From positions 1-25,510 of IMG/VR virus record IMGVR_UViG_3300040801_006120: DNA of 25,510 nucleotides. One strand, 5' to 3'. Source of the stretch: a virus. The notes below the pieces were generated by a model, which was not told the origin of the DNA, did not search any database, and was given only the letters and a program-made list of their open reading frames with translations. Position 1 is the stretch's first letter, and each line of letters starts with the position of its first letter. Of the stretch, positions 6,998 to 10,010 are shown in pieces. Both the position numbers and the translations under genes were made by a program.

Positions 6998-7057
6998 TCC
7001 ACAGAGACCCACACGCAGCACGGAACTTTTACCCGCGAAATTGGACAAGGGGGGGTG

Positions 7058-7897
7058 ATGAATGAGCTGGCATTATTTGCAGGAACAGGGGGCGGACTTC
7101 TCGCCAGCCGATTGCTCGGCTGGTCCACCGCCTGCGCAGTTGAATTGGCCGAGTACCCGCGCCAAGTTCTGCTCCAACGACAACGCGACGGACACCTCGA
7201 CCACTTCCCAATCTGGGACGACGTGCGAACCTTCGACGGCCGACCGTGGCGTGGAGGCATCGACATCATCACCGGCGGCTTCCCCTGCCAGGACATCAGC
7301 GGCGCAGGTACAGGTGCAGGACTTGCCGGAAGCCGTAGCGGTCTTTGGTTCGAGTATCAGCGCATCATTGAGGAAGCTAGGCCTCGCTTTGTCTTCGCGG
7401 AAAACAGTCCGAACCTCCGCACCCGTGGCCTCGGCCAGATCATCGAAGGACTTGCCGCGTTGGGGTATGACGCACGATGGTGCGTGCTGGGAGCTTGGCA
7501 CGTCAGCGCGCCCCATCGACGAGACAGAATGTGGGTACTGGCCCACGCCGAAGGCGACCGCCGCGGGTCCGGACTTCGCCAAGCTCAACCGATCATCGAC
7601 GGGTATCAGTCTCCCCACTGCGGTAGCGATAGCGCAACTACCGACCCCGACGGTACAGGACGCGAAGAACAACGGGGGGCCTGCCCAACATCGACGACAC
7701 ACCAAACCGCTGAATGCGGTGGCTGGTGGACCGCTGAACCCGCCCTGGGTCGAGTGGCTCATGGGGTGGCCAATCGGGTGGACCGACTCAAAGCCATTGG
7801 CAACGGACAAGTACCGCTGGTGGCAGCAACAGCATTCAAGCTGCTTAGCCAAGGCTGGATAGAACAGAACGGCACCCAGCAAGTGGAGGGCACATGA
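7058..7897 (+). CDS. DNA (cytosine-5) methyltransferase
   Basis: 279 aa from ATG 7058; a GTG one codon earlier is possible. All core C5-methyltransferase motifs are present in order: motif I ALFAGTGGG near the N-terminus for S-adenosylmethionine, motif IV GGFPCQDIS with the nucleophile C77, motif VI ENSPN with E115, motif VIII APHRRDRMWVLAH, and motif X RLKAIGNGQVP near the end. The region between motifs VIII and IX is short, so the target-recognition domain is small. It would methylate phage DNA and shield it from host restriction. The whole gene also carries a second conserved frame (7062-7862). The stop overlaps the next methyltransferase start (ATGA). Confidence 0.9.
   Translation: MNELALFAGTGGGLLASRLLGWSTACAVELAEYPRQVLLQRQRDGHLDHFPIWDDVRTFDGRPWRGGIDIITGGFPCQDISGAGTGAGLAGSRSGLWFEYQRIIEEARPRFVFAENSPNLRTRGLGQIIEGLAALGYDARWCVLGAWHVSAPHRRDRMWVLAHAEGDRRGSGLRQAQPIIDGYQSPHCGSDSATTDPDGTGREEQRGACPTSTTHQTAECGGWWTAEPALGRVAHGVANRVDRLKAIGNGQVPLVAATAFKLLSQGWIEQNGTQQVEGT
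7062..7862 (+). CDS. Overprinted protein in an alternate frame of the C5 methyltransferase gene
   Basis: 266 aa, entirely open in another frame of the methyltransferase DNA. GGGGGG at 7050-7055 lies six bases before this ATG but only two before the methyltransferase ATG, so this frame is well placed for initiation. From memory of phage proteins, several segments match a recurrent family: LPRWGMTHDGACWELGTSA, GYWPTPKAT, LPTPTVQDAK and the hallmark WVEWLMGWPIGWTDS (from W229), followed by TDKYRWW. Such sequences are usually annotated as methyltransferase-associated. Recognisable segments in both frames argue for true dual coding rather than chance openness in high-GC DNA. Function is unknown. 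A frameshift-derived alternative C-terminus of the methyltransferase is the other reading. Confidence 0.6.
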   Translation: MSWHYLQEQGADFSPADCSAGPPPAQLNWPSTRAKFCSNDNATDTSTTSQSGTTCEPSTADRGVEASTSSPAASPARTSAAQVQVQDLPEAVAVFGSSISASLRKLGLALSSRKTVRTSAPVASARSSKDLPRWGMTHDGACWELGTSARPIDETECGYWPTPKATAAGPDFAKLNRSSTGISLPTAVAIAQLPTPTVQDAKNNGGPAQHRRHTKPLNAVAGGPLNPPWVEWLMGWPIGWTDSKPLATDKYRWWQQQHSSCLAKAG

Positions 7898-9360
7898 CAA
7901 CCACGACGCAAAACCTCACAATCGACTACCGACCGACCGGCGAACTGCGGCCCTACGCCAACAACGCCCGCACCCACAGTGCTGCCCAAATTAAGGCGAT
8001 TGCCCGCAGTATCGAAACTTTCGGGTTCACGGTTCCAATCCTCATCGACGGCAGCGGCACCATCATCGCCGGCCACGGTCGCCTCGAAGCCGCGGGCCAA
8101 ATCGGCATGGAATCCGTGCCCACGATTCAACTTTCGCACCTGACCGACGAGCAGCGGCGAGCCTACATCATCGCCGACAACAAGCTAACCGAGCGCGGCG
8201 GATGGGATAAGGAACTGCTGACCGCCGAGCTGGCCGACCTGCGGGAAGCCGGCCTCGACCTGGAACTCACCGGCTTCGAGGCGGGAGAGCTTGACGACCT
8301 GCTGAGTATCGGCGACGACCCGAAACGGATGTCGCTGTCGGACCGCTTTCTTGTGCCCCCGTTTTCAATTCTGGACGCCCGGCAAGGCTACTGGCAAGCC
8401 CGCAAACGCGAATGGCTCGACCTAGGCCTACAGTCGGAACTGGGCCGCGGCGACAACGAACTGGGCTTCTCGGAAGTCTGCAACAATGGCGGATACCGCG
8501 GCCGGGCCAAGGCCTACAACACAGCCGGAACCAGCGCCGAGAGCGGCGGCAGCAGCGCGAGCGGAACCAGCGTCTTTGATCCGGTGTTGTGCGAGGTTGC
8601 GTACCGCTGGTTCTGCCCGCCCGCCAGCCGGGTGCTGGACCCGTTCGCCGGCGGCAGCGTACGCGGTATCGTCGCCAGCCGCCTGCGTCACCACTACACC
8701 GGCATCGAACTGCGGCCCGAGCAGGTCGAAGCCAACCGCCAACAGGCCGAGGCCATCACCCGCGACGATGACCCGCTGCCCCAATGGATTGAAGGCGACA
8801 GCCAGGACGCCGCGAAGCTGGCCCCCGGCATATACGACTTCATCCTTTCGTGCCCGCCCTACGCCGACCTCGAAGTCTACAGCGACGACCCCCGCGATCT
8901 TTCCACGATGAGCTACGACGACTTCCGCGAGATGCACGCCCGCATCATCGCCGAGGCCTGCGGGATGCTGAAAGACAATCGCTTCGCGGTCTGGGTGGTA
9001 GGCGAAGTCCGCGGCCCCGACGGCAGCTACCGCGGATTCGTCCGCGACACCATCAATGCCTTCGAAGCCGCCGGCTTGAAGCTGTGGAATGACGCCGTGC
9101 TGGTGACCGCCATCGGTTCCCTGCCGATCCGCGTCGGAACCCAGATGATGAAAAGCCGGAAGCTCGGCAAGACCCATCAGGACGCCCTCGTGTTCTTCAA
9201 GGGCAGCATCGACGACTTCCGGGAAAGCTGGGCGTTGGAACCCAGCCACCACAACGTCCTCGTTTTCACCAAAGGCAACGGCCAGGCCGCCACCCGTGCC
9301 ATCGGCGATGTTGATGTGGGGCAGCTGGAACAGCCCGAACCGGAAACGGAGGCGGTGTGA
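7894..9360 (+). CDS. ParB-like domain fused to N4/N6 DNA methyltransferase
   Basis: 488 aa. Residues about 10-110 are a ParB/sulfiredoxin-like domain (RPYANNARTHSAAQIKAI, then GTIIAGHGRLEAA). A linker with VPPFSILDARQGYWQARKREW follows. The methyltransferase core has DPFAGGSVRG (D249 onward, S-adenosylmethionine binding) and SCPPY (S319-Y323, catalytic). The amino-methyltransferase motif is of the S/D-PPY type, so the target base (N4-C or N6-A) cannot be fixed. Fusions of this kind are common in temperate phages, where they modify the phage genome. It overlaps its neighbours on both sides by a few bases, which suggests co-translation with the C5 enzyme and the PLD-like protein. Confidence 0.88.
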   Translation: MTTTTQNLTIDYRPTGELRPYANNARTHSAAQIKAIARSIETFGFTVPILIDGSGTIIAGHGRLEAAGQIGMESVPTIQLSHLTDEQRRAYIIADNKLTERGGWDKELLTAELADLREAGLDLELTGFEAGELDDLLSIGDDPKRMSLSDRFLVPPFSILDARQGYWQARKREWLDLGLQSELGRGDNELGFSEVCNNGGYRGRAKAYNTAGTSAESGGSSASGTSVFDPVLCEVAYRWFCPPASRVLDPFAGGSVRGIVASRLRHHYTGIELRPEQVEANRQQAEAITRDDDPLPQWIEGDSQDAAKLAPGIYDFILSCPPYADLEVYSDDPRDLSTMSYDDFREMHARIIAEACGMLKDNRFAVWVVGEVRGPDGSYRGFVRDTINAFEAAGLKLWNDAVLVTAIGSLPIRVGTQMMKSRKLGKTHQDALVFFKGSIDDFRESWALEPSHHNVLVFTKGNGQAATRAIGDVDVGQLEQPEPETEAV

Positions 9361-10010
9361 TGCTCGATGACCTCCCCGCACTCGACATCGACGCCCCCGC
9401 ATTTTACGAGGAACAGACCGAGGATAGCCGCAATGTGGATGTGACGCTGCACGACGACCGCACCCACCGGAGGACTCCCAGCCGCCGCGCGATGATTGAC
9501 TGGACGAGGGTCAGCAACGCGGCCCAGCACCTAGACCGCCTACCCGATCCCGGCGAATCAGTGCATGGCATTATGCGGTGCAACTTCGACGCTTTCGACT
9601 TTGTGCCCGCCATTGTCCGGCTGCTACAGCCGGCACGTTGCATCGAACTGAACATCGCAACCCTCGGGTTCAATGAGCGTAACGCCGCCGCACTGCTTGA
9701 CCTACTGGATACTGGCGAAATAGAGCGGGCCAGCTTCATCGGCTCGCACTTTTGGAAGTCCCACGAAACAGGCGTGTATGACGCCCTGCACCACGACCTA
9801 ACCACCCGCGGCCATCCATGCCTCGCCATGCGGTGCCACGCCAAGCTGCTGCTATTCGAGGCCGACGACGGCCAGTGTTTCACCATGGAGAGCAGCGCGA
9901 ACCTCCGCAGCTGCCGGAACCTCGAGCAATTCGTTTTAACCCACGACCGCGACCTGCTGCACTTCCACCGCCGGTGGATGACCGAGATGTTCGAGGGGGC
10001 CGGCCAATGA
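9360..10010 (+). CDS. Phospholipase-D-like domain protein
   Basis: 216 aa. The ATG shares a base with the preceding stop (TGATG); a GTG one codon earlier is less likely. The C-terminal half carries one HKD-like motif: H160-x-K162 in RCHAKLLLF, followed after about 16 residues by ESSANL (S178, S179, N181). Upstream sequence contains an IELNIATLGFNERNAAAL segment typical of the strand-helix units in PLD folds. PLD-family nucleases usually work as dimers when only one HKD is present. The Asp of the motif is not obvious at standard spacing. A role in DNA processing is more likely than lipid cleavage in this context, but unproven. The stop overlaps the terminase small subunit start. Confidence 0.7.
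   Translation: MLDDLPALDIDAPAFYEEQTEDSRNVDVTLHDDRTHRRTPSRRAMIDWTRVSNAAQHLDRLPDPGESVHGIMRCNFDAFDFVPAIVRLLQPARCIELNIATLGFNERNAAALLDLLDTGEIERASFIGSHFWKSHETGVYDALHHDLTTRGHPCLAMRCHAKLLLFEADDGQCFTMESSANLRSCRNLEQFVLTHDRDLLHFHRRWMTEMFEGAGQ

Follow-up and report, generated by a model that had tools for sequence, protein, structure and literature searches.

In most C5-cytosine DNA methyltransferases the TRD and motif IX lie on the same chain as the catalytic motifs, and the split enzymes are the known exceptions. The beta polypeptide of one of these, M.EcoHK31I, is reportedly encoded in another frame inside the alpha gene. The large subunit of M.EcoHK31I carries motifs I-VIII and X, with motif IX in the smaller polypeptide, whereas the beta polypeptide of M.AquI carries motifs IX and X (PMC3404938).

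The window (the whole stretch of viral DNA analysed here, 25,510 nucleotides of an IMG/VR virus contig) holds a phage gene pair that resembles these two-polypeptide enzymes. As in M.EcoHK31I and M.EaeI, its alpha polypeptide has motifs I-VIII and X; as in M.EcoHK31I, motif IX belongs to the second polypeptide, here identified by a profile match to the part of single-chain relatives that contains motif IX, and the beta reading frame, distinct from that of alpha, lies inside the alpha gene. Differences from M.EcoHK31I are the phage setting (M.EcoHK31I belongs to a restriction-modification system and methylates YGGCCR), the starts only 4 nt apart, the near-complete overlap (about 98%) and the TRD-like modules in beta (the TRD of M.EcoHK31I was placed in alpha by a published prediction). 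Searches of plasmids and E. coli for M.EcoHK31I itself returned four copies on E. coli chromosomes and, among plasmids, nothing closer than distant relatives. M.AquI is split in the variable region, as is the window enzyme, but the M.AquI arrangement (motif X in beta) differs from that of the window, where motif X is in alpha. M.AquI-like forms were found as partial overlaps in actinophages (Arthrobacter Juno112 41/42, Mycobacterium Druantia 78/77).

In Paenibacillus phage Shelly, gp55 and gp56 (annotated in the record as 'g55 internal gene') are nested in the +1 frame like the window pair; the Shelly beta start, however, is not at +4 but 184 nt into alpha, and Shelly falls in a separate clade of the alpha tree. 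The ShiLan insertion in mycobacteriophage methylase genes also hides a second protein out of frame, an HNH homing endonuclease carried by an inserted element (PMC11855218), whereas the hidden protein of the window would be the enzyme's own recognition half. The entries for PHROG 363 (alpha) and PHROG 1008 and 26627 (beta) do not, as displayed, mention that one DNA stretch encodes both families. No published description of this phage overlap was found in the literature searched (most subscription journals and REBASE were outside its scope).

Collection of related loci

Relatives were collected by scanning viral contigs twice and genomes once, and from eight phage records. This gave 211 loci, some of which are overlapping pieces of one contig, and 212 sequences with an alpha match when the window and its copy L212 are counted. 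For many loci, the search that found them used alpha or beta itself, and the counts below are not unbiased frequencies. Two subsets were used: a non-redundant set of 149 loci, in which a start codon at +4 was required, and a motif survey (ARRANGEMENTS) of 99 loci that were additional or annotated.

A beta relative was found in the +1 frame of alpha in 211/212 sequences; in the remaining one (L208), which had no beta BLAST match, the beta frame is open too and ends in a WLMGWPPRWTD segment. The tblastn matches of the two frames fell in identical records and positions, offset by +4 (Salmonella S9-5, Acinetobacter ABMM1 and Vibrio ZQ26 are examples). Hundreds of phage relatives thus share the arrangement. 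The proposal, made from the window alone, that the alternate frame belongs to a recurrent phage family is borne out by these database relatives.

The gene pair and its start region

The features of the locus are as follows (all on the plus strand):

7046-7055: Shine-Dalgarno-like tract CAAGGGGGGG, upstream of both starts
7058-7897: alpha, 279 aa from ATG, predicted C5-cytosine methyltransferase catalytic domain with motifs I-VIII and X
7058-7064: double start ATGAATG; in 149/149 relatives alpha codon 2 has T as its last base and is followed by G
7062-7862: beta, frame +1, 266 aa from ATG, with TRD-like WPTP modules and predicted motif IX
7073-7096: alpha motif I, LFAGTGGG, AdoMet site
7274-7300: alpha motif IV, GGFPCQDIS, with catalytic Cys77
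7400-7408: alpha motif VI, ENS
7517-7528: alpha motif VIII, RRDR
7539-7550: first beta WPTP module, facing the end of alpha motif VIII
7638-7667: beta module 2, LPTPTVQDAK
7734-7784: beta motif IX-like segment LNPPWVEWLMGWPIGWT; the alpha synonymous sites there are about 88-100% identical among relatives
7799-7816: alpha motif X, GNGQVP
7894-9360: next gene, a ParB-like N-terminal domain fused to an N4/N6 DNA methyltransferase (context, outside the pair)

The sequence-only reading had described two open frames on the same strand, 266 codons long in the second, and these correspond to the ORFs at 7058-7897 and 7062-7862. The five alpha motifs that it called intact (I, IV, VI, VIII and X) were each located in frame 1, and its WPTP, PTPTVQDAK and WVEWLMGWPIGWT segments are present in the 7062 frame. 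Its six-base G tract at 7050-7055 is in fact seven G long (7049-7055); the spacings that it gave were right, the last G being 2 nt before the ATG at 7058 and 6 nt before the ATG at 7062.

The start region reads CAAGGGGGGGTGATGAATGAG. Alpha could also begin at an in-frame GTG at 7055, and the beta ATG stands 4 nt past the alpha ATG on the same strand (offset +4). In its best register the tract CAAGGGGGGG lies 4 nt before alpha and 8 nt before beta. A Shine-Dalgarno match was recognisable in 116 of the 149 loci, at median distances that are likewise 4 nt (alpha) and 8 nt (beta), in agreement with the earlier suggestion that the two starts share one ribosome binding site; both starts are conserved. 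One ribosome-binding tract probably serves both starts.

The second codon of alpha is AAT (142 loci), CAT (4) or CGT (3), always followed by G; elsewhere in alpha, asparagine is encoded by 781 AAC and 458 AAT codons (63% AAC). A start codon at +4 was a condition for entering the set, so the codon-2 count describes the group and is no test on its own. A start at exactly +4 was absent in only seven of all the loci aligned at the alpha start: three of these (L004, L006, L007) belong to the internal-start group, and the other four are co-start-like, with a beta frame free of stops. Within the same set chosen for the beta start, the usual alpha start position is not a start codon in 12/149 loci, so that alpha has to start further upstream, yet the beta start is kept; beta, not alpha, is thus the fixed point. 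In L008, L161, L125 and others, the alpha start codon is replaced by TTA, CTT, CTA or CTC and the beta ATG or GTG is retained.

Alpha and beta as probable halves of one enzyme

Pfam PF00145 covers only residues 4-166 of alpha (E 1.9e-29), and the profile match of alpha to phrog_363 has an E-value of 1.9e-65. With LFAGTGGG (I), PCQ (IV), ENS (VI), RRDR (VIII) and GNGQVP (X) on a Rossmann-type core, alpha has the motifs of a C5-cytosine DNA methyltransferase (PF00145). In the AF2 model, the core (residues 1-168 and about 245-268) is confident and residues 170-240 are disordered (pLDDT below 50); the Foldseek comparison with M.HhaI and M.HaeIII aligned about 168 columns (E about 7e-14). Motif searches and model agree in predicting that alpha lacks the small domain, the TRD and motif IX, and the matching region was found in the +1 frame.

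Beta matched PHROG 1008 'DNA methyltransferase' (E 3.7e-17) and PHROG 26627 (E 1.5e-14), and no family in Pfam, NCBIfam or PADLOC. The bridge to known enzymes is provided by two single-chain phage proteins, DLane gp65 (464 aa) and Silvy gp53 (550 aa). Their N-termini match the alpha profile (E 7e-39 and 1e-39, respectively) and their C-termini, in the same frame, carry a PEWMMGWPAGW segment that matches the beta profile (E 9e-10 and 5e-9), to which no decoy matched. The order in both proteins is the alpha part, several LPTP modules, PEWMMGWPAGW and then motif X (GNGVCPQQA). Because the single-chain forms match at this point and continue into motif X, the beta segment LNPPWVEWLMGWPIGWT is placed at the motif IX position of C5 methyltransferases, and beta is assigned by homology to the C-terminal half (TRD and motif IX) of the single-chain enzymes. 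AF2 of beta alone was poor (pLDDT 55, pTM 0.22), as expected for half an enzyme, yet uninformative, and the beta profile gave no convincing relative among PDB sequences (best E 0.084, chance level); the TRD and motif IX assignment therefore rests on the phage single-chain bridge and on motif resemblance.

Each beta has 0-6 WPTP-like modules about 32 residues apart, against 0-1 in residue-shuffled C-terminal parts, and the alpha residues opposite the modules are VADAD-like low-complexity text. It is a reasonable guess that the modules form a modular recognition array. Expanded WPTP arrays occur in L034 (1067-2533) and L041 (3001-4278), in which beta exceeds 400 residues and both frames remain open through the added DNA.

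Since alpha lacks exactly the half that beta has, the two are best read as subunits of one enzyme. A separate role for beta, such as that of a regulator or an anti-restriction protein, would suit its N-terminal part of about 110 residues, which has no assigned homology, and would do without the alpha-beta complex that we infer; it is nevertheless improbable, as beta is homologous to the very C-terminal half that alpha is without, and motif X moves between the frames in a way that keeps the motif set complete.

We therefore favour, with high confidence, a split C5-cytosine DNA methyltransferase whose two subunits, catalytic alpha and recognition beta, are encoded in overlapping frames of the same DNA; they would start together, assemble and protect the genome. 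Alpha would be the catalytic large domain, contributing AdoMet binding, the PCQ nucleophile, the ENV-type loop and motif X. Beta would form the DNA-recognition side with its WPTP-type TRD modules, and its motif IX would pack the recognition domain onto the core. Initiation would occur independently at both ATGs, and two starts within 4 nt behind one ribosome-binding tract would give about equal amounts of the halves. The assembled alpha and beta would constitute an active, sequence-specific enzyme, which would most likely methylate the phage genome and so evade host restriction.

A broader proposal is that the phages share a whole class of bipartite enzymes encoded nearly completely in two frames of one DNA stretch, that the adjacent starts and the single ribosome-binding site fix a 1:1 ratio, that the +1 WPTP array (0 to 6 modules, about 32 residues apart) is expandable and can change target specificity, and that alpha accommodates the inserts as a disordered linker. 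This we put forward tentatively, as something that may well not hold in full.

Locus architectures and the catalytic-core tree

In the motif survey of 99 loci, 42 were nested with motif X in alpha, 27 were partially overlapping with motif X in beta, 15 were single-chain and two had separate genes; one half was missing in six, and motif X was not recognised by the simple pattern in five nested and two overlapping loci. Every overlap was +1. The motif set is thus complementary between the two frames. Among the actinophage loci, L214, L215, L216 and L005 have two genes that overlap by 23-239 nt, always in +1, with motif X in the downstream gene; both genes bear the annotation 'DNA methylase' or 'DNA methyltransferase'.

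A catalytic-core tree placed the 44 co-start rows, including the window, on one side of a branch with SH-aLRT 100; the internal-start nested forms fell nearly together, and single-chain and partial-overlap forms were intermixed. The tree was a quick, unrooted one and gives no direction of change. The series of single-chain, partly overlapping, nested and co-start nested forms makes it possible to study how one gene can fold into two frames and how motif X can appear in the other frame.

The existence of single-chain relatives, together with partial-overlap relatives such as Druantia 78/77, where the overlap is short and the downstream start unclear, might suggest a programmed frameshift that joins the alpha N-terminus to the beta C-terminus in one polypeptide. 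For the co-start loci this is very unlikely: the beta ATG or GTG is kept in 149/149 (in a set chosen for that start), forcing AAT over the commoner AAC, and a single shift into beta would lose motif X, which lies in the alpha frame past motif IX.

Selection on both frames

No stop was found inside the beta frame in any of the 149 loci (0 in 149/149), where synonymous shuffling of alpha gave an expectation of about 4.5, or 5.5 when the TGA of A-TGA-ATG is counted; this TGA, just before the beta start, is the single stop counted in most loci. The control frames of the relatives contained more: 15.4 stops on average in +2, and 4.7-7.7 in the antisense frames. The accumulation of stops that would have spoken against an overlapping gene is thus not seen.

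Identity at fourfold third bases of alpha was 0.54 against 0.26 expected, and rose to 0.88-1.0 at the tested positions of alpha residues 226-241, opposite beta LNPPWVEWLMGWPIGW; synonymous-site identity was about 100% opposite LNPxWVEWLMGWPxGWT. At 40-70% amino-acid identity, the fourfold values were 0.45-0.58 for alpha and 0.33-0.37 for the flanking genes, so the synonymous-site comparison at homologous loci came out with alpha more conserved than its neighbours.

Substitutions were also compared in 204 close pairs, which are not independent and in which some C-terminal alignment is loose. Over the C-terminal part, the rate of alpha-nonsynonymous/beta-synonymous change (0.267) exceeded that of alpha-synonymous/beta-nonsynonymous change (0.218), so beta is constrained at least as strongly as alpha there. 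Over the N-terminal part alpha dominates (0.063 against 0.29 for the reverse class), and over its first 110 or so residues beta adds only weak constraint to that from alpha. These comparisons show that purifying selection acts on both frames and that both are coding.

The contig is GC-rich and contains antisense ORFs of 275, 324 and 491 aa, so that ORF length alone is weak evidence of coding. The least credible reading is that the +1 frame goes untranslated and is open only because a conserved methyltransferase gene has GC-rich codon usage: long spurious ORFs are common in the contig and a conserved alpha protein yields some similarity in other frames, but the missing stops, the conserved second start, the near-complete synonymous conservation at motif IX with its lower flanking-gene control, the range of GC among relatives (0.46 to 0.68) and the independent beta homologs within a single frame refute it on comparative grounds.

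The earlier interpretation as true overprinting of two proteins therefore needs qualification. Dual coding stands, but the de novo origin of a new protein is the wrong picture for the C-terminal half of beta, given its TRD and motif IX homology, and the two products are better read as halves of one enzyme than as independent proteins. The overlap (median 98.5% of alpha) is an unusually long and deeply conserved same-strand gene overlap in prokaryotic viruses, and its reason appears readable in these halves. Most of the records examined annotate just one of the two frames; as a result the recognition half goes unnoticed and the methyltransferase seems to lack a part.

Neighbouring genes and antisense ORFs

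The gene at 7894-9360 overlaps the alpha stop by ATGA, and two methyltransferase units thus stand side by side ahead of the terminase genes. Among the downstream genes, those that were scanned specify terminase subunits, a portal, a head protease, and major head and tape-measure proteins. The antisense ORF at 7073-7900 (minus strand, 275 aa) was considered as a gene and rejected: the antisense frames of relatives average 4.7-7.7 stops, and since the ORF is not conserved in them it is likely a GC-rich by-product. Between the methyltransferases and the terminase small subunit, a small gene (9357-10010) has weak similarity to the phage endonuclease family phrog_16945 (E 2.4e-8).
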